Below, piece after piece: positions 35,214 through 44,567 of a stretch of 64,000 nucleotides of DNA. A program made the position numbers and the translations under genes. Below the pieces are notes generated by a model. The model ran no database searches. It was not told where the DNA came from and saw only the letters and a list, made by a program, of their open reading frames with translations. This DNA is from an uncultured Oscillospiraceae bacterium (lineage in GTDB: Bacteria > Bacillota > Clostridia > Oscillospirales > Oscillospiraceae), in assembly GCA_947626085.1 (NCBI GenBank), contig CANQQU010000003.1, positions 1-64,000 on the forward strand, in the 5' to 3' direction. The stretch's first letter is position 1, and each line of letters opens with the position of its first letter.

Positions 35214-36155
35214 GTGAAGACCCTGTTTTCCAAACTCGCGGCTCTCATTATTACATTGTTCCTGGTCTCCGCCCTGGCCTTCTTTGCCTTTGCCCTGATT
35301 CCCGCCGACCCCGCCACCACGATGTTAGGCTCCGAGGCGACCCCGGAGGCGGTGGCGGCGCTGCGGGCCCAGCTGGGCCTGGACCGGCCCCTGCCGGTGC
35401 GGTATTTTGAATGGCTGACAGGCTTCCTCCGGGGGGACCTGGGAGAGAGCTACCTCTATCGCATGGAGGTGGGGCAGATGCTCTCCGGCAAGCTCGCGGT
35501 GTCGGCCCTGCTAACGATGCTGTCCTTCCTCTTGACGGTGGCGCTGTCCATCCCCCTGGGGGTGCTGGCGGGAAGTGTACGGAATCGGTACCTAGACGCC
35601 GCCGCCGTGGGCCTGAACCAGCTGGTGATGAGCGTGCCCCCCTTTTTCCTGGGCATTCTGGCCTGCTATGGGCTGGGTATCGTCCTGAAATGGTTCACTC
35701 CCGGGGCCTATGTGTCCCCGGAGAAGGATTTCTGGGGCTGCGTCCGGTATCTGATCTTCCCGGCGCTGTCCATCGCCATTCCCCGGTCCGCCATGGCGGT
35801 GAAGCTGCTCCGCAGTGCCATCCGGGACCAGCTGGGGCAGGACTATGTCCGCACCGCCCGGAGCCGGGGGGCCTCCGAGCCCTCCATTTTGCTCCGGCAG
35901 GTGCTGCGCAACGCCCTGCTGCCGGTGATCACCTTTTTGGCGGTGTCCCTGGCGGAGATCATGACCATGAGCATCCTCATCGAGCAGGTTTTCAGCATCC
36001 CCGGGGTGGGGCAGCTGCTGCTGTCCAGCGTGTCCAACCGGGACTATCCGGTGGTGCTGGCCATCGTCATGCTCCTGGCCGCCTGGATCGTCACCATCCA
36101 CTTCCTGGCGGATCTGCTGTCCCGGTTGGCCGATCCCCGGGTCCGGTTGGGATAG
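35214..36155 (+). CDS. ABC transporter permease (DppB/NikB-like)
   Basis: ALRAQLGLDRPLPVRYFEWLTGFLRGDLGESY; QDYVRTARSRGASEPSILLRQVLRNALLPVITF. Confidence 0.93.
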   Translation: MKTLFSKLAALIITLFLVSALAFFAFALIPADPATTMLGSEATPEAVAALRAQLGLDRPLPVRYFEWLTGFLRGDLGESYLYRMEVGQMLSGKLAVSALLTMLSFLLTVALSIPLGVLAGSVRNRYLDAAAVGLNQLVMSVPPFFLGILACYGLGIVLKWFTPGAYVSPEKDFWGCVRYLIFPALSIAIPRSAMAVKLLRSAIRDQLGQDYVRTARSRGASEPSILLRQVLRNALLPVITFLAVSLAEIMTMSILIEQVFSIPGVGQLLLSSVSNRDYPVVLAIVMLLAAWIVTIHFLADLLSRLADPRVRLG

Positions 36156-36165
36156 GGGGGCAGGT

Positions 36166-36969
36166 ATGAAGCAAAAGATTAGCCCCATGCTCCTGTTCGG
36201 CGGAGCTACCAGCCTGCTGACGGTGGGCGCCGCCCTCCTGGGGGCGTTTTGGACCCCCTATAACCCCACGGCGGTAAGCGCCGCGGAGAAATTCTGCCCG
36301 CCCTCCCTTGTCCACCTGTTGGGGACCGACAATTTTGGCCGGGACGTGTTCAGCCGGGTCCTCCAGGGCATGGGGGCCAGTCTGCTGATCGCCGCCTGCG
36401 TGGTGGCCATCGGCTGCCTGCTGGGCACCGCCATCGGCTGCCTGTGCGGCTATTTCGGCGGCCCGGCGGACTTTCTGCTGACCCGGCTGTGCGATGTCGT
36501 CACCGCCTTCCCCTCGGTGTTGCTGGCGCTGGTGGTGGTCAGCCTGGCGGGCCGGGGGACGGCCCAGATCATCCTGGCCCTGGGGGTGCTGTTCATCCCC
36601 AGCTTTGCCCGGCTGGTCCGGGGGGAGGCGGCCCGCTGCCGGGACGCCAGCTACATTCAGAGCGCCCGGCTCATGGGCGTCTCCCACAGCCGCATCCTGC
36701 TGGCCCACATTCTGCCCAATCTCAAAGGGGTGCTGGTGCCGGCCATCGTCATCGGTTTCAACAACGCCATTTTAAGCGAGGCCAGCATGAGCTTCCTGGG
36801 CCTGGGGGTGCAGCCCCCCTTCCCCAGTCTGGGCTCCATGCTCTCCGACAGCCAGACCTATCTGCAGCGGGCCCCCTGGTACGCGTTCAGCGCTGGGGCG
36901 GCCATTGCCCTGCTGATCCTGGGGTTCAGCCTGCTGGGAGAGGGGCTTCAGCGCCGCCGCCGGGCGTAA
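36166..36969 (+). CDS. ABC transporter permease (DppC/NikC-like)
   Basis: LLGTDNFGRDVFSRVLQGMGASLLI; SYIQSARLMGVSHSRILLAHILPN. Confidence 0.93.
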   Translation: MKQKISPMLLFGGATSLLTVGAALLGAFWTPYNPTAVSAAEKFCPPSLVHLLGTDNFGRDVFSRVLQGMGASLLIAACVVAIGCLLGTAIGCLCGYFGGPADFLLTRLCDVVTAFPSVLLALVVVSLAGRGTAQIILALGVLFIPSFARLVRGEAARCRDASYIQSARLMGVSHSRILLAHILPNLKGVLVPAIVIGFNNAILSEASMSFLGLGVQPPFPSLGSMLSDSQTYLQRAPWYAFSAGAAIALLILGFSLLGEGLQRRRRA

Positions 36970-36980
36970 GGAGGGAGCGT

Positions 36981-37763
36981 ATGCTGCAAGTTGAGCATCT
37001 TTCGGTCCGATTCCCAGGCTCGGAGGCCCTCGCGGTGGAGGACGTGAGCTTTTCTCTAAACCGGGGGGAAATCCTGGGCCTGGTGGGGGAGAGCGGCAGC
37101 GGGAAATCCGTCACCGCCCAGTGCCTGGCGGGGCTGCTGCTCCCCGACGCGGAGGTAACAGGCACGATTTGCCTGGAGGGGCAGGAGTTGACCGGGGCGT
37201 CCCCGGCCCAGCTCCGGGCCGTCCGGGGGAAGGAGGTGGCCATGGTGTTCCAGGAGCCCATGACCAGCCTGAACCCGGTGCTGCGGGTGGAGCGGCAGGT
37301 GGAGGAGGCCCTTCGGGTCCACACCCGCCTAAACGGGCGCCAGCGCCGGGACAAGGCCCTGGCCGCCATGGCGGAGGCGGAGCTGCCGGAACCGGCGGCC
37401 CTGGGCCGCCGCTATCCCCATCAGCTCTCCGGGGGCCAGCTCCAGCGGGCGATGATCGCCGCCGCTCTGGTGTCGGAACCCAAGTATCTGCTGTGCGACG
37501 AGATCACCACCGCCCTGGACGTGACGGTCCAGGCCCAGATTTTGGACCTGCTATCCCGGCTTTCCCGGGAGCGGAATATGGGGGTGCTGTTCATCAGCCA
37601 CGATCTGCGCCTGGTGAAAAAGCTCTGCCACCGGGCGCTGGTGATGCGCGGCGGCAGGATCGTGGAGACCGGCACCGTGGAGGAGCTGTTCCGGGCCCCC
37701 CGGGAGGCGTACACCCGGCGGCTGTTGGACGCCATTCCCACCCGGAACAGCAAGCTGCGATAA
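36981..37763 (+). CDS. ABC transporter ATP-binding protein (DppD/NikD-like)
   Basis: GLVGESGSGKSVTAQ, HQLSGGQLQRAMIAAAL, LLCDEITTALDV; start MLQVEHLSVRF. Confidence 0.92.
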   Translation: MLQVEHLSVRFPGSEALAVEDVSFSLNRGEILGLVGESGSGKSVTAQCLAGLLLPDAEVTGTICLEGQELTGASPAQLRAVRGKEVAMVFQEPMTSLNPVLRVERQVEEALRVHTRLNGRQRRDKALAAMAEAELPEPAALGRRYPHQLSGGQLQRAMIAAALVSEPKYLLCDEITTALDVTVQAQILDLLSRLSRERNMGVLFISHDLRLVKKLCHRALVMRGGRIVETGTVEELFRAPREAYTRRLLDAIPTRNSKLR

Positions 37764-37772
37764 GGAGGAGCC

Positions 37773-38480
37773 ATGCGTATCTTGGAAGTGGAGGGTCTTT
37801 CGGCCTGGTATACCCAGGGGAGGACCCGGCAGCCGGTGCTGCAAGACGTGACCTTTTGCCTGGACCGGGGGGAGGTCCTGGGCCTGGTGGGGGAGAGCGG
37901 CAGCGGAAAATCCACCCTGGCCCGGTCGATTTTGGGCCTGCACCGGGACTGGGAGGGCCGGGTGCGGCACTATACCCCCCGCCCTCAGATGATCTTTCAG
38001 GACCCCTACCGCAGCCTGAACCCGGCCCACACCCTGCTCTGGACCCTGACCGAACCCCTCCGGGCCGCCGGGGTCCCAGCAGCGCAGCGGCGGGAGCGGG
38101 CCATGGCCCTGCTGGACCGGGTGGGCCTGGCGCCGGAGCTGGCCCGCCGCTATCCCCAGGAGCTCTCCGGGGGCCAGCGCCAGCGGGTGGCCATTGCCGC
38201 CGCGGTGATCGCCCGCCCCGGTCTGGTGGTGGCGGACGAGCCGGTGAGCGCCCTGGACGTGACGGTGCAGCGGCAGATTTTGGAGCTGCTGATGGACCTG
38301 AAACGGGAGTACGGCTTTAGCTGCCTGTTCATCAGCCACGACCTGGGGGTGATCTACCAGATCTGCGACCGGGTGCTGGTGATGGATGGGGGCAGGATCG
38401 TGGAGGAAAACGACACCGACGCCCTCTTTGCCGCGCCCAAGCATCCCTTCACCAAAAAGCTGCTGGAGGCAGCGGAATAA
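37773..38480 (+). CDS. ABC transporter ATP-binding protein (DppF/NikE-like)
   Basis: GLVGESGSGKSTLARSILGL, QELSGGQRQRVAIAAAV, LVVADEPVSALDV. Confidence 0.92.
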   Translation: MRILEVEGLSAWYTQGRTRQPVLQDVTFCLDRGEVLGLVGESGSGKSTLARSILGLHRDWEGRVRHYTPRPQMIFQDPYRSLNPAHTLLWTLTEPLRAAGVPAAQRRERAMALLDRVGLAPELARRYPQELSGGQRQRVAIAAAVIARPGLVVADEPVSALDVTVQRQILELLMDLKREYGFSCLFISHDLGVIYQICDRVLVMDGGRIVEENDTDALFAAPKHPFTKKLLEAAE

Positions 38481-38514
38481 AATCGCCGCCGGAATTTCCG
38501 ACGGCGATTTTTGG
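38479..38514 (+). terminator. Rho-independent terminator (convergent)
   Basis: AAAATCGCCGCCGGAATTTCCGACGGCGATTTTT. Confidence 0.8.
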
Positions 38515-38525
38515 CGTTTTTTGGG

Positions 38526-39788
38526 TCAGACGGCGTTCAGGATGCCGATAAATACCGGCAGGTTGGTTTCATTGTGGATGATCATATAGACGAAGGGATG
38601 GTCTAACTGAACGGATTTGTAGCCGTTCGGGTCCAGGGCGCCGGCGGCGTCCATCATCACCGCCGTGGCGGCCCCGGCCCGGGTGCCCATGGCGGTGAGG
38701 GTCAGGCTGGTCTTGTGGACCACCTGGCCGATGTAGAGGGGCATGGGGCTCATGTGGGAAAAGTCCGCCGTGTCCGCCTCGAAGGCGTCGGGCATCCCCA
38801 TGGCCGCCAGAATTTCCTTCAGGGTGTAGTCTCCCTCCACCTGGAACATGGGCAGCCACAGATGCACGTCGGCCTCCTGGGCACCCTCCAGCAGGGCCTG
38901 GAGCGCCGCCCCGTCCAGACCGGCAAGCACCTCCTCCGGGGTAACGTCCTCCTTGGGCAGCAGGGCCACGAAGGCAAAGTCCCCGCTGGCATAGTCTTTC
39001 CGGAAGCCGGTGGCCAGCTGGTTTTCCAGGTAGACCGACTCTGTCCCGTACAGGAACTCCGCCTCCTTTACCGTCCCGTCCGCCTGGGTGAAGTCGGCGG
39101 GGCCGATCTGGTCCTCCCGGAAGGGGTCGGCCCATTCCGCGTCAAAGGAAAGGGCGTTGACCAGGCACATCACCGTCTCCTGAGGCAGGTCCGACAGAAT
39201 TTCCTCAATCTGCCCGTCGGTCTGCTCCTTTACCCACTGGTTGATCTGCTCCAGGGTGGCCCGGGTGAAGGGCTGGCGGAACAGCTCCGCGCCGTACCAG
39301 TCCCGAAGGGCCGTCTCAAAATCCGGCCGGATGGGTACCAGCTCCTCCGGCTCGCACCAGACGGCGTTGGCAATGTTCAGCGCCCCGGATTCCAGGGCCG
39401 CCTGCCGCAGGCCGGAGAGGTAGCCGTTGAGCCGGTCCACTGGGGCCCCCAGCACCGCCTCCATCTGCTGCCGGGTCTCCCCGGCGGCGCCGTTGGCGGT
39501 CATGGCCAGGGCGAACAGCACGCTCATGGGGGACACCAGGGTGTTTTCGCCCTTTTTCGCCGCCGCGCTGGTCAGACGCAGGGCAAAGTCCGCCGCCTGG
39601 ACCCGGTCCTCCCGGGTGACGGCCGCCGGAACCAGGGGCGGCAGGGTCCCGGGGTCCGGGTGAGTGGCGGGCGGCTGGGAAACGGTGGACGCCTGGGAAG
39701 TTGTGGGCGTTTGGGTCCCGTTGGGGATCGCCTGGGCGCAGCCGGTGAGCAGCAGGGCCAGGGCCAGAATCAAAGCAAACTTTTTCAT
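38526..39788 (-). CDS. Serpin family lipoprotein
   Basis: Lipobox LLTGC; NTLVSPMSVLFALAMTANGAAGETRQQMEAVLG; hinge/RCL GTRAGAATAVMMDAAGALDPNG; C-terminal LDHPFVYMIIHNETNLPVFIGIL. Confidence 0.95.
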   Translation of the reverse strand: MKKFALILALALLLTGCAQAIPNGTQTPTTSQASTVSQPPATHPDPGTLPPLVPAAVTREDRVQAADFALRLTSAAAKKGENTLVSPMSVLFALAMTANGAAGETRQQMEAVLGAPVDRLNGYLSGLRQAALESGALNIANAVWCEPEELVPIRPDFETALRDWYGAELFRQPFTRATLEQINQWVKEQTDGQIEEILSDLPQETVMCLVNALSFDAEWADPFREDQIGPADFTQADGTVKEAEFLYGTESVYLENQLATGFRKDYASGDFAFVALLPKEDVTPEEVLAGLDGAALQALLEGAQEADVHLWLPMFQVEGDYTLKEILAAMGMPDAFEADTADFSHMSPMPLYIGQVVHKTSLTLTAMGTRAGAATAVMMDAAGALDPNGYKSVQLDHPFVYMIIHNETNLPVFIGILNAV

Positions 39789-40396
39789 GTCTCTCCTCCT
39801 TGAATTTCAATGACGAGATAGCTGCCGTCCGGATCTGGGGGCTGGCACAACAGCGTGACGGTGTCCCCCGGGGACCAGGGCCGGTCGGGGATCAGGCCCT
39901 CCGCCAGCCGGACCAGCACGGTTTCCCCCACCAGCTGGGACCCGTACGGGCCGGCGTCCTCCACCCGGACGAAGTAGCCGTCCTCCGCCGCCTCCGTGAT
40001 GGTCACGGTCAATTTCAGCGCCTCGTCCATAATAATAAAATCACCCGGCAGGCCGTCGGCGCTGGGGTCGGACCCAGCGGCATGGTCCTCTCCATCAGCG
40101 GGGGCCGGCGGCAGGGTCCCGGCGGGGACGGTGGTCTGGGCCGCCGGGGCGGTGGTACTCTGGGATGTGGCAGTGATCGGCCCGCCGGCCGGAAGCCCGG
40201 TAGACTGGGGGTCGCCGGCGACCTGGTCCGGCCCGGGTTGCCACACCCGGAAGGCAAAGATCGTCACCGCCAGCGCCAGGCAGGCCGCCAGGGGCAGCAG
40301 CAGGGGCCGTTTCCGCCTTTTCCGGCCCTGTTCCGCCCCAGATAGCAGCGCCGGGTCAATTTCGCCCAGGGCGTCTAGGAGTTCGTCAGGGTTCAT
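39785..40396 (-). CDS. Single-pass exported/membrane protein, candidate anti-sigma partner
   Basis: Start overlaps end of sigma gene; N-terminal cytoplasmic region, TM LLLPLAACLALAVTIFAF, Ser/Thr-rich linker, small beta-rich C-terminal domain. Confidence 0.65.
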   Translation of the reverse strand: MNPDELLDALGEIDPALLSGAEQGRKRRKRPLLLPLAACLALAVTIFAFRVWQPGPDQVAGDPQSTGLPAGGPITATSQSTTAPAAQTTVPAGTLPPAPADGEDHAAGSDPSADGLPGDFIIMDEALKLTVTITEAAEDGYFVRVEDAGPYGSQLVGETVLVRLAEGLIPDRPWSPGDTVTLLCQPPDPDGSYLVIEIQGGET

Positions 40397-40953
40397 AGGT
40401 CGAATCCCTCCTTTTGCAGATGGGTTTTCAGGGCCGCCCGGGTGCGCCAGAGCAGGCTTTTCACCGCCGGCACGGTCATGCCGTTCTGGGCGGCCACCCG
40501 CTCCAGGGGGTCAAAATAGTAATACCGGCACAAAAATACCCGCCGGGTCCGCTCCGGCAGCCCCCGTAAAAAATCCTCCAGCGCCCGCGTCAGCTCCTTT
40601 CGCTCCAATGTTCGGGCCGGGTCAGAGCCCCCGGGGAGGATCTCGGCCAGCTCCTCCAGGGACAGGGCGTATTCCGACGGCTTTCGCTTTGCCCGGTTAT
40701 TTCGGCGGAACCGGTCGATGGCGATCCGGCGGGTCAGCTTGCCCAGGTAGAGGCCCAGCTTTTCCGGGCGCTGGGGCGGGATGGAGTTCCAGGCGGCCAG
40801 GTAGGCGTCGTTGACGCTCTCCCGGCAGTCCTCCCGGTCAGGAAGGATGTTCTGGGCGATGGATTCCAGGTAGCGGCCGTATTTTTCCTGGGTCCGGGCG
40901 ACGGCCTCCTCGCTCCGGGCAAAATACAGCGATACGATGGCTTGATCCTCCAT
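40393..40953 (-). CDS. ECF-like RNA polymerase sigma factor
   Basis: RYLESIAQNILPDREDCRESVNDAYLAAWNSIPP; sigma-4 LPERTRRVFLCRYYYFDPLERVAAQNGMTVPAVKSLLWRTRAALK. Confidence 0.9.
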   Translation of the reverse strand: MEDQAIVSLYFARSEEAVARTQEKYGRYLESIAQNILPDREDCRESVNDAYLAAWNSIPPQRPEKLGLYLGKLTRRIAIDRFRRNNRAKRKPSEYALSLEELAEILPGGSDPARTLERKELTRALEDFLRGLPERTRRVFLCRYYYFDPLERVAAQNGMTVPAVKSLLWRTRAALKTHLQKEGFDL

Positions 40954-41063
40954 GTGGTTCCTCCCTTCCGGGGAAAAGCGCTTTTCACCCCTCTACTCGT
41001 CAAAAAACGGGCCGGGTTGCGCGCTCCCAAAAAAATTTTTTACCCCGGCGCGCCGGGGCAGGT

Positions 41064-42035
41064 TCATAGCAGGAATAAAATGACCAGCAGCTTGCACCCC
41101 GCCCCCAGGGCCAGGGCCAAAAAGGCGGTGGTAAACAGCAGCCTACAGGCGGCGGGGATGTCCTCCGGGGTGATCTCCCGGAGGGGGTCGCCGATGAAGG
41201 GCTTTTTGTGAAGCACCCCGTGATACCAGGCGTCCCCCGCCAGCCGCAGCCCCAGCAGCCCGGCGCAGACGGACTCGGTCTGGGCGGAGTTGGGACTGGC
41301 GTGGTTCAACCGGTCCCGGCGGAAGATCCGCCAGCCGTTTTTCACGTTTAGATGGTCCAGGGCCCCGGCCAGGAGCATGGTAAGGGCGGTGAGCCGGGCG
41401 GGAACGAAATTGAATACGTCGTCCATCTTCGCCGGGACCAGGCCGATATGGGTGTAGGGCGGGTCGGTGTAGCCCAGCATGGAGTCCATGGTGTTCACCG
41501 CCTTGTAGAAAAAGCCCAAGGGCGCGCCCCCCAGCAGCAGGTATAATAGCGGCGCCACCACCCCGTCGGAGGCATTCTCCGCCACGGTCTCCACGGCGGC
41601 CCGGGCCACGCCCTTTTCATCCAGCCGCTCCGTGTCCCGGCCCACGATCATGCGCACCGCCTGGCGGGCGTCCTCCAGGGTGCTGTTTTTCAGGGCATAG
41701 TAGACCTTCATGCTCTCGTCCCGCAGGGACCGGGTGGCCAGGATCTGCCAGCACATGAGGCTCTCCAGCCCCAGACCCAGCCAGACGTTCCACCGATAGG
41801 CGAAAAACAACAGAAAAAAGGGAAGAAGAAAGCTCAGCCCCGCGGTGATTAACCACAAAATCCCCCCGGCCAGCCGCTCCCCGGCGGGGGTTTTGGGCAG
41901 CAGGCGGCGCAGGCCCTTTTCCAACAGGGAGATGGTCTTCCCCATCCCCGCCACGGGGTGGGGAATGCTGTGGGGGTCCCCCAGCACCAGATCCACGGCA
42001 AAGCCCAGCAGCAGGGCGTACAGACTGTATCGCAT
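41064..42035 (-). CDS. cbiB: Adenosylcobinamide-phosphate synthase
   Basis: GFAVDLVLGDPHSIPHPVAGMGKTI; DTERLDEKGVARAAVETVAENASDGVVAPLLY. Confidence 0.95.
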   Translation of the reverse strand: MRYSLYALLLGFAVDLVLGDPHSIPHPVAGMGKTISLLEKGLRRLLPKTPAGERLAGGILWLITAGLSFLLPFFLLFFAYRWNVWLGLGLESLMCWQILATRSLRDESMKVYYALKNSTLEDARQAVRMIVGRDTERLDEKGVARAAVETVAENASDGVVAPLLYLLLGGAPLGFFYKAVNTMDSMLGYTDPPYTHIGLVPAKMDDVFNFVPARLTALTMLLAGALDHLNVKNGWRIFRRDRLNHASPNSAQTESVCAGLLGLRLAGDAWYHGVLHKKPFIGDPLREITPEDIPAACRLLFTTAFLALALGAGCKLLVILFLL

Positions 42036-42099
42036 GGCGGCTCCTTTCCGGCGTTTTTCTTTATTTTATTTCCGGGCGGGGCGTTTGTCAAGCGGCCGC

Positions 42100-42128
42100 T
42101 TGCAAAGGCCGCGGCGATGTGGTACAAT
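42100..42128 (+). promoter_or_regulatory. Sigma-A promoter for cobT operon
   Basis: TTGCAA - 17 nt - TACAAT. Confidence 0.65.
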
Positions 42129-42199
42129 GGCGAAAAGACAAGGCGGCGGGCGTATTTTGACAGCCTGCCGGAAATCAGGAAAAGCAAGGGGGAACGGAT

Positions 42200-43294
42200 A
42201 TGGAAGAACAACTGCGGCGGCTGCTGGCCGCCATCTCCCCCCTGGACGAAGGGGCCATGAACGCCGCCCGGCGGCGGCAGGCGGCGCTGGCCAAGCCCCC
42301 CGGCAGCTTGGGGCGGCTGGAGGAGCTGTCCGTTCAGCTTGCGGGCGTCACCGGCCGGGTCCGGAACCGGGTCGAAAAAAAGCACCTTCTGGTCTTTGCC
42401 GCCGACAACGGCGTGGCCGCCGAGGGCGTCTCCAGCGCTCCTCAGAGCGTCACGCTTCAACAGACCGTGAATCTGACCCGGGCCAAGACCGGGGCCTCGG
42501 TGCTGTGCCGCCACTTTGGCTGCGGCATCACGGTGACGGATGTGGGCGTCCTGGGCCCGGTGCCGGAACAAAAGGTGGTGAACCGGAAGGTCCGCCATTC
42601 CACCGGCAATATCGCCCTGGGACCCGCCATGACCCGGCAGGAGGCGCTCCGGGCCATCCTCATCGGGGCCCAGACCGCCGCCGAGACCCCCGCCGACGTG
42701 CTGGGGGTGGGGGAGATGGGCATCGGCAACACCACCACCTCCGCCGCCGTGCTGGCCTGCCTGCTGTCTGTGCCGGTGGAGGCCGTGGCGGGGAAGGGCG
42801 GGGGCCTGACGGAGGCGGCCTTTGAGAAGAAAAAGGCGGTGATCGCCCAGGCCTTGGCGGTGAACCAGCCGGACCCTGCCGACCCGGTGGAGGTCCTTTC
42901 CAAGGTGGGCGGGCTGGATATCGCCGCCATGTGCGGGGCCTTTTTGGGCGCGGCGGCCACCCGGCGGCCGGTGGTGATCGACGGGTTCATCTCCGCCGTG
43001 GCGGCACTGTGCGCCTGGCGGCTGTGTCCTCAGGTCCGGGGGTATCTGGTTCCCTCCCACGCCTCCTTTGAGATCGGCTACCGCCTGGCCATGGAGGCCA
43101 TGGACCTAAAGCCCATGCTCCTGCTGGACATGCGCCTGGGGGAGGGCAGCGGCTGCCCCCTGGCCTTTGAAATTTTGAGCGCCGCCTGCGCCATTCTCAA
43201 CGACATGGCCACCTTTTCCCAGGCGGGCATCGACGACGGATACCTGTCCGACATCCGCCAGGGGGATGCCTTTACCGTGGAGGAAAAGCCATGA
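42200..43294 (+). CDS. cobT: Nicotinate-nucleotide--dimethylbenzimidazole phosphoribosyltransferase
   Basis: AKPPGSLGRLEELSVQLAGV; VFAADNGVAAEGVS; GEMGIGNTTTSAAVLACLL. Confidence 0.95.
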   Translation: MEEQLRRLLAAISPLDEGAMNAARRRQAALAKPPGSLGRLEELSVQLAGVTGRVRNRVEKKHLLVFAADNGVAAEGVSSAPQSVTLQQTVNLTRAKTGASVLCRHFGCGITVTDVGVLGPVPEQKVVNRKVRHSTGNIALGPAMTRQEALRAILIGAQTAAETPADVLGVGEMGIGNTTTSAAVLACLLSVPVEAVAGKGGGLTEAAFEKKKAVIAQALAVNQPDPADPVEVLSKVGGLDIAAMCGAFLGAAATRRPVVIDGFISAVAALCAWRLCPQVRGYLVPSHASFEIGYRLAMEAMDLKPMLLLDMRLGEGSGCPLAFEILSAACAILNDMATFSQAGIDDGYLSDIRQGDAFTVEEKP

Positions 43295-43830
43295 AAATTC
43301 TGATTGCCGGGGGTTCCAAAAGCGGCAAGTCCGACTTTGCCCAGACCCTGGCTCTTAAATTGGCGGGGCAGGGGCGGCGGTTTTATGTGGCCACCATGAT
43401 CCCCTTCGACGCCGAGGACCAGGCCCGGATCGCGGCCCACCGGTCTCGCCGGGCGGGAATGGGCTTTGAGACGGTGGAGGAGCCAAGGCACCTGCTCCGG
43501 TGCCTGGAAAAGGAGCCGGGGGCTTACCTCATTGACAGCGTCACCGCCCTGCTGACCAACGCCCTGTTTCCCCAGGAGGCGGACTATCGCTTTTCTCCGG
43601 AGGAAGGGGAGCGGTGCCTGTCGGAGCTGCTGGCCTTCGCCCGCCGGGCGGAGGACGTGGTATTCGTGATGGATTTTATTTTTTCCGATTCCGGCCTATA
43701 TCCACCGGAGACGGAGTACTTCCGCCGCCTGCTGGGCACGGCGGGGCGGCGGCTGGCGGCCCTCTGCGACACGGTTTTGGAGGCGTCGGCGGGCCAAATT
43801 TTCATCCACAAGGGGGCGCTTCCCAAATGA
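43291..43830 (+). CDS. cobU: Adenosylcobinamide kinase/guanylyltransferase
   Basis: MKILIAGGSKSGKSDFAQTLAL; YVATMIPFDAEDQARIAAHRSRR. Confidence 0.93.
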   Translation: MKILIAGGSKSGKSDFAQTLALKLAGQGRRFYVATMIPFDAEDQARIAAHRSRRAGMGFETVEEPRHLLRCLEKEPGAYLIDSVTALLTNALFPQEADYRFSPEEGERCLSELLAFARRAEDVVFVMDFIFSDSGLYPPETEYFRRLLGTAGRRLAALCDTVLEASAGQIFIHKGALPK

Positions 43831-44567
43831 AACGGCTTTTAAAGGCCCTTGCCATGTGCCAGAGCATGTTCTGCGCCCTGCCGGTGCCGGGAAATTTCTG
43901 GGACGAGGAGGCCCGGCCCCTGATGCTCCTGTTTTTGCCCCTGGTGGGGCTGGAAATCGGGCTATTGTGGCAGGGCCTGGCGTGGCTCTGCGGCGTTTTG
44001 GGACTGCCGGCGCTCCTGGCTGGGCTGCTCCTGTGCCTGTTTCCCTACCTCGTTACCGGGGGCATCCATTTGGATGGCTACATGGATGTGGCCGACGCCA
44101 TGGGCTCCTGCCGGGACCTGGAAAAGCGCCGGGCCATTTTGAAGGACCCGCACATCGGCTCCTTCGCGGCCCTGGCCCTGGGGATGGCGCTGCTGTCCGG
44201 CTTTGCCCTGCTGAGCCAGGGAGGACGGGGGAGCCTCTGGCTGATCCCGGTGGTGAGCAGGTGCGGCTCGGCCCTGGCGGTGACGGGCCTGCGGCCCATG
44301 TCCGGCAGCCAGTACGCCGGAGCCCGGCCCCCGGCGTGGCAGAAGGGGGTCCTCCTGGCCTTTTTGGCGGCGGCTGGGATCGCGGCATGGTTTTTTGGGT
44401 CGATCCCTGCCTATTTGGGCGGGATCGTGGGGTATTTTTTGGCGGCGGCGTGGGCCTACCGGGGCCTGGACGGCATGAACGGGGACGTGGCGGGCTACGC
44501 CCTGACCGTCTCGGAGCTGACGGCGCTGGCCTTCGCGGTGTGTTGGGAGGCGGTCGGATGGTGCTGA
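43827..44567 (+). CDS. cobS: Adenosylcobinamide-GDP ribazoletransferase
   Basis: ALAMCQSMFCALPVP; GGIHLDGYMDVADAMGSCRDLEKRRAILKDPHIGSFA. Confidence 0.93.
   Translation: MKRLLKALAMCQSMFCALPVPGNFWDEEARPLMLLFLPLVGLEIGLLWQGLAWLCGVLGLPALLAGLLLCLFPYLVTGGIHLDGYMDVADAMGSCRDLEKRRAILKDPHIGSFAALALGMALLSGFALLSQGGRGSLWLIPVVSRCGSALAVTGLRPMSGSQYAGARPPAWQKGVLLAFLAAAGIAAWFFGSIPAYLGGIVGYFLAAAWAYRGLDGMNGDVAGYALTVSELTALAFAVCWEAVGWC

Follow-up and report, generated by a model that had tools for sequence, protein, structure and literature searches.

How does a gut bacterium decide when to place a serpin on its surface? Serpins of gut bacteria attract study because they might dampen intestinal proteases in inflammatory bowel disease; to our knowledge, the control of their production is largely unknown. 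The question is raised by three genes in a 64,000-nucleotide stretch of DNA from an uncultured Oscillospiraceae bacterium (assembly GCA_947626085.1, contig CANQQU010000003.1, positions 1 to 64,000; hereafter the window). On the minus strand, a gene for an extracytoplasmic function (ECF) sigma factor is followed by genes for a single-pass membrane protein and a lipoprotein serpin. We propose, with a probability of roughly 0.72, that these genes form an autoregulated ECF sigma/anti-sigma operon with a surface lipoprotein serpin as its co-transcribed output, and that this operon is part of a wider theme of serpins under ECF control in gut Clostridia. The operon, its promoter motif, its recurrence, the related fusions and the intact serpin hinges are features that can be read directly from the sequence.

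A previous sequence-only reading of the window had placed the three genes at this position and strand, and had named an ECF-like sigma factor and a lipid-anchored serpin. All of these assignments were borne out. The product of the first gene (40393-40953, 186 aa) matches TIGR02937 above cut-off (E = 2.3e-20) as well as Sigma70_r2 (3e-8) and Sigma70_r4 (1e-6), both exceeding the Pfam cut-offs. With regions 2 and 4 only, a length of 186 residues and an adjoining anti-sigma gene, it fits the description of an ECF sigma factor. The second gene (39785-40396, 203 aa) codes for the putative anti-sigma factor, which was assigned by a profile match of its N-terminal stub, by position and by topology. 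The third gene (38526-39788, 420 aa) codes for a protein with the lipobox LLTGC and a full-length serpin domain at residues 65-416 (PF00079, 277.6 bits, E = 2e-82, positions 3-366 of 370). Both junctions are 4-bp overlaps. An 8-bp stem with an A/T run after it (41041-41060, minus strand) terminates the upstream gene, and a hairpin with a 15-bp stem and a T-rich tail lies 3' of the serpin gene (38479-38512, minus strand; -24.4 kcal/mol, z -4.8). Since terminators flank both sides, the operon is, as far as its sequence tells, isolated and stands alone as one transcription unit.

The sigma gene is one of five members of its subfamily within the genome. A promoter profile was built from the upstream regions of 74 sigma genes of the same subfamily, which share the motif TGTAAC-N16-CG(A/T)CTTTATAGGTGAAAG, located 49 to 119 bp upstream of the start codon. 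The mean score over these regions is 22.4 bits and that of shuffles -3.2 bits (95th percentile, 5.5), a contrast that is flattering because the profile was fitted to the same 74 sequences. An unfitted test for (A/C)AC-N-CG gave a peak at a spacing of 16 only, with 24 of the 74 regions counted and 10.1 expected. The best profile match in the 64 kb, itself one of the 74 sites in the fit, is CGCAACC-N15-CGAGTA, then GAGGGGTGAAAA (40982-41021, minus strand; 21.5 bits), and the runner-up scores 11.2 bits. By its sequence, this site resembles an autoregulated promoter of the AAC-N16-CG type. Since this best family promoter stands directly upstream of the sigma gene, with the terminator of the upstream gene on its far side, and since our search of the operon region found no sigma-70-type promoter, the serpin is likely co-transcribed with its sigma factor and the operon likely autoregulated. 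One of the cases that the sequence-only reading had named against itself was separate transcription of the serpin; the gene overlaps contradict it, as does the sole strong promoter, which lies upstream of the sigma gene.

The leader of the operon contains a palindrome, GGGGTGAAAAGCGCTTTTCCCC (40973-40993, minus strand), that may serve as an operator or as an mRNA hairpin. It recurs in related operons: many of them carry GTGAAAGG...CCTTTC / GTGAAAGG...CCTTTCAC just downstream of the -10 element. We rejected the idea that this palindrome forms an unusually stable RNA, because it is no more stable than shuffles (z -0.3).

The arrangement is found more than once in the same genome. All three of its serpins are encoded in operons with a sigma gene. 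Contig 57 carries a second operon for a sigma factor, a membrane protein and a lipoprotein serpin; this sigma factor is divergent (22% identical). On contig 62 (G000:C62:8289-10191, also numbered L074 and L194), the sigma gene is overlapped by a 452-aa gene that fuses an N-terminal stub and a transmembrane (TM) helix to a complete serpin. This protein begins with MEPEKLEKALDEISEKHVAQAAKKRPGRHLKW and runs through the TM helix straight into the serpin domain. Contigs 47 and 2 contain two more sigma genes of the subfamily, each followed by a protein with a similar N-terminus and another outer domain. Further operons of sigma factor, membrane protein and serpin occur in genomes G160/G088 and G066/G146/G203, which represent two or three further genera. 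Conservation of the triad had been proposed as a check on the sequence-only reading. The exact operon is not conserved in its genus, but the arrangement recurs in other genomes, and therefore the coupling of sigma factor and serpin is, as judged from gene order, not accidental. In locus L036 (3989-9062), a sigma gene cut by the locus end is followed by genes for a TM protein and for a 1267-aa protein with three SLH and two serpin domains; this S-layer-anchored double serpin is the probable output of its operon.

Is the membrane protein of the window an anti-sigma factor? It contains one TM helix at about residues 33-51, preceded by RKRRKRP. A short cytoplasmic motif, MNPDELLDALGEIDPALLSGAEQGRKRRKRP, lies ahead of the helix, and a Ser/Thr/Pro/Ala-rich linker and a small beta region follow it. 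The sequence-only reading had described a membrane protein in the anti-sigma position with a Ser/Thr linker and a small beta domain. The single TM helix and the linker stand, and the beta domain appears in a low-confidence structural model (mean pLDDT 56, about 60-83 in the beta part). The protein has no Pfam match; hence it shows neither the zf-HC2 domain of ZAS anti-sigma factors nor the outer domain of the RsiV family. Its N-terminal 52 residues match the profile of fused anti-sigma proteins (A1) with E = 1.9e-4. Relatives were detected in 28 other genomes among 301 genomes of the family, mostly by the N-terminus only, and no full-length relative was found in this set. The single TM helix, the N-terminus inside and the gene directly downstream of the sigma gene are those of an anti-sigma factor. 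Position, topology and recurrence thus point to a putative anti-sigma activity. A weak match of the outer domain to an immunoglobulin-type protein in a sequence search was judged to be chance.

Fusions as on contig 62 are widespread. Serpins are present in 155 of the 301 family genomes, and a profile built on 19 fused proteins gives matches that start in its first five positions, stub included, in about 39 genomes from about 21 genera. Adjacency was examined for 162 distinct serpin genes with flanking DNA, to which stubs were assigned by a hidden Markov model. This sample contains 70 stub-bearing fusions, a number that does not represent a prevalence since 80 named loci were picked by likeness to a fusion. 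The carriers are gut Clostridia and include the isolates Flavonifractor sp. AGMB03687, Flavonifractor sp. An112 and Cuneatibacter sp. NSJ-177; fusions were also found beyond the family (L208, L236, L238). The sigma gene was not in the query, so that its adjacency is a fair test. It lies directly upstream of 68 of the 70 fusions, the remaining two being tandem second copies, and of none of the 52 stand-alone lipobox serpins with enough flank. Eleven more serpin genes with a different or unclassified stub follow a sigma gene directly, and most of these sigma genes score much lower. Serpin fusions to such a second anti-sigma stub, which in several is of the YKRAN..IHAP type, stand behind lower-scoring sigma genes in L077, L092, L165, L181, L185, L190 and L192.

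These counts bear on the simplest alternative, in which a tethered or co-transcribed serpin is just a surface inhibitor and the neighboring sigma gene is incidental. Many serpins of the same clades are indeed lipoproteins without a nearby sigma gene, and SLH-anchored serpins exist too. However, the sigma adjacency of fusions is essentially invariant, and their TM anchor is not generic: it carries the same cytoplasmic motif as proteins in the anti-sigma position that lack a serpin. We consider this alternative very improbable. Taken by itself, the stub gives weaker matches to proteins that have other outer parts, throughout the phylum, and to the membrane protein of the window. Since these matches span proteins with differing outer parts, the stub appears to behave as a general anti-sigma module to which exchangeable outer parts are attached.

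A tree of 160 serpin domains (FastTree) places the fusions in one supported part of 114 rows, where lipoproteins of their type are found too; the triad serpins fall in the other part. The fusion label changes 17 times on this tree, compared to 52 times when shuffled. Because these changes are far fewer than shuffled yet more than one, the anchor has probably been exchanged between stub and lipobox several times. Triad serpins fall in the lipoprotein clade with 3 changes, which is compatible with a single origin for them as well as with several.

By their sequence, the fused serpins could be functional traps. All 70 contain the hinge signature of P17 Glu and P15 Gly, and the even positions, which have to be buried when the loop inserts, read V/C, A/G, A/S and T almost throughout. 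P9, which would face the solvent, is aromatic in 70 of 70. By counting, P1 and P1' are both small in 61 fusions. The predicted structure of a fused serpin adopts the serpin fold with tengpin as the top match (E = 5e-31). An anti-sigma factor whose outer domain is a complete serpin could act as a suicide-substrate receptor, in which the sprung trap both neutralizes the protease and reports it. The window operon would then be a split form, with a separate lipoprotein serpin under a sibling anti-sigma factor. We advance this idea tentatively, at somewhat less than even odds.

In a more specific version, the fused serpins, and by extension the system that includes the window operon, would be receptors for proteases. 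A protease attacking the reactive loop would drive loop insertion, and this would free the N-terminal tether and expose the anti-sigma factor to signal peptidase or site-2 protease, by analogy to the sensing of lysozyme by RsiV. The near-invariant sigma adjacency, the insertion-competent hinges and the small P1 and P1' residues of the fusions are consistent with such a receptor. The tether joins the serpin at its N-terminus, and in tengpin from Thermoanaerobacter (PDB 2pee/2pef) a tail at this end maintains the native state, which is metastable (PMC8233489). RsiV provides the precedent: this anti-sigma factor of an ECF sigma factor serves directly as a lysozyme receptor, after which signal peptidase cleaves it (PMC4183432). 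A membrane-proximal AxA motif, which we tried as evidence for site-1 cleavage, is present in 51 of 70 fusions and likewise in 11 of 20 lipoproteins; it singles out no cleavage site and was rejected as such evidence. The receptor idea alone also leaves the split version in the window unexplained. We regard this version as possible rather than probable.

For the window operon itself, we infer anti-sigma activity, a signal, proteolytic release and the inhibition of target proteases in the following scheme. In the resting state, the sigma factor would be held by the short motif on the cytoplasmic side of the membrane protein. Perception of an extracellular signal by the outer domain would lead to loss or release of the anti-sigma factor, probably through regulated intramembrane proteolysis; an M50 site-2-type protease is encoded in the genome. 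The freed sigma factor would use the CGCAACC/CGAGTA promoter to transcribe its own operon. The serpin would build up on the cell surface, where it may trap serine proteases of the elastase or subtilisin type. In the fused relatives, the signal could be the cut that a protease makes in the serpin loop. Protease sensing by serpins is a well-motivated inference that these data suggest; the case is stronger for the fusions than for the split form, since in them the anti-sigma factor has a serpin for its outer domain. The window serpin is more readily understood as an output than as a sensor.

Which proteases would this serpin trap? Its closest solved relative is tengpin (E = 5e-77). The hinge reads GTRAGAATAVMMDAAGALDPN, with GTRAGAAT at P15-P8. 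Gly at P15, Thr at P14, Ala at P12 and P10, and Thr at P8 fit the inhibitory pattern; P17 is Ala and not the usual Glu. Apart from this residue, the hinge is like that of the fusions. Counting from P15 Gly places Ala-Gly at P1-P1' and Val at P6. The sequence-only reading had also counted small residues near P1-P1'. This count holds, but the exact P1 is uncertain because P17 is atypical and because, in the siropins of another gut bacterium, neutrophil elastase and proteinase 3 cleave Val bonds that lie N-terminal of the counted P1 (PMC5127057). Both of these enzymes are inhibited by characterized gut serpins (PMC5127057, PMC8201313). A specificity of the window serpin toward elastase- or subtilisin-like enzymes is plausible from its loop sequence.

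Serpins without an adjacent sigma gene also point to ECF control. Among 71 such stand-alone serpins (promoter sites from loci within L033-L192), 49 are preceded by (G/A)AAC-N15-17-CGTC, compared to 3.8 expected. The spacing peaks sharply at 16 (40) and 17 (10), and the motif is nearly absent from the opposite strand. Most sites read GGAAC, and many run on as CGTCTAA. In 18 relatives, exact GGAAC-N16-CGTCTAA sites precede serpins, other lipoproteins, a transport component and zf-HC2 anti-sigma genes, the last of which sit just downstream of a sigma gene. Because the exact sites also precede zf-HC2 anti-sigma genes, an ECF regulon with an anti-sigma factor of the ZAS type seems to include the stand-alone serpins. 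In L260, L262 and L263, a sigma gene and then a zf-HC2 anti-sigma gene lie downstream of a dus-like gene, with GGAAC-N16-CGTCTAA near the junction; this pair is a candidate controller of the stand-alone serpins. The genome of the window contains one match to GGAAC-N16-CGTCTA versus six in a backwards control, which we attribute to chance. Since operons, fusions and stand-alone promoters were all found, the serpins of these gut bacteria are tied, on the evidence of gene arrangement and promoter motifs, to ECF control in three configurations.

The same promoter raises an alternative for the signal. The sigma/anti-sigma pair may sense general envelope stress, such as an antibiotic, bile or an antimicrobial peptide, with the serpin as one of several protective outputs. 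The GGAAC/CGTCTAA promoter of the stand-alone serpins also precedes genes for other lipoproteins, for a transport component and for zf-HC2 anti-sigma factors, as would be expected for an envelope-type regulon, and the outer domain of the anti-sigma factor in the window is not a serpin. In the fusions, however, the serpin is this outer domain and the only constant external feature, and a search for a downstream partner gene common to the fused operons found none. We judge that general stress sensing comes close to an even chance without reaching it.

Several points weigh against our proposal of an autoregulated operon with a serpin output. The operon might respond to a different envelope signal, with the serpin as one among many outputs. 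The exact window operon is absent from the other searched genomes of its genus. The N-terminal motif of the membrane protein belongs to no Pfam family, so that the anti-sigma role is assigned by position, topology and recurrence; its small outer beta domain is unrelated to serpins. Finally, Glu occupies P17 in 149 of 153 other serpins counted, and Ala in the serpin of the window. The sequence-only reading had suggested that the triad is a circuit that senses surface proteases and deploys an inhibitor. The single transcription unit, the sigma/anti-sigma pair and the co-expressed lipoprotein serpin are the parts of this interpretation that stand.

Serpins, ECF sigma factors and modular anti-sigma factors are already known kinds. 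Siropins 1 and 2 from Eubacterium siraeum are likewise serpins of gut Clostridia with an Ala/Gly-rich hinge that inhibit elastase-like proteases, but a word search of the paper on them found no sigma-factor context (PMC5127057). Tengpin is a group T bacterial serpin and the closest solved relative of both the window serpin, by sequence, and a fused serpin, by fold; the sources consulted on tengpin do not describe a sigma-factor context. The serpin operon of Bifidobacterium breve, another gut bacterium, stands beside a dedicated signaling system and is protease-induced, but as cited in PMC8012564, the regulator is a two-component system instead of an ECF sigma factor and the serpin is outside the receptor. 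SigV/RsiV also combines an ECF sigma factor with a single-pass anti-sigma factor, the outer domain of which senses a host defense enzyme (PMC4183432, PMC5014341); this domain is not a serpin, and its target is lysozyme and not a protease. The anti-sigma partners in the SigI/RsgI systems of cellulolytic clostridia share an inner part and carry exchangeable outer sensor modules, but they belong to another sigma family and recognize polysaccharides (PMC3413522). In the open-licence papers searched, which leave most subscription journals outside their coverage, we found no report of a serpin/anti-sigma fusion or of systematic ECF control of gut-clostridial serpins. The operons, fusions and promoters described here make the sensing of host or rival proteases by commensals, and the receptor for it, directly testable. 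If true, a serpin as signaling receptor would be a new bacterial use of the serpin conformational switch.

The genes that flank the operon lie outside of it and were named by sequence reading only. A peptide/nickel-type ABC transporter is encoded on the plus strand at 35214-38480, and a cobalamin biosynthesis cluster occupies 41064-44567.
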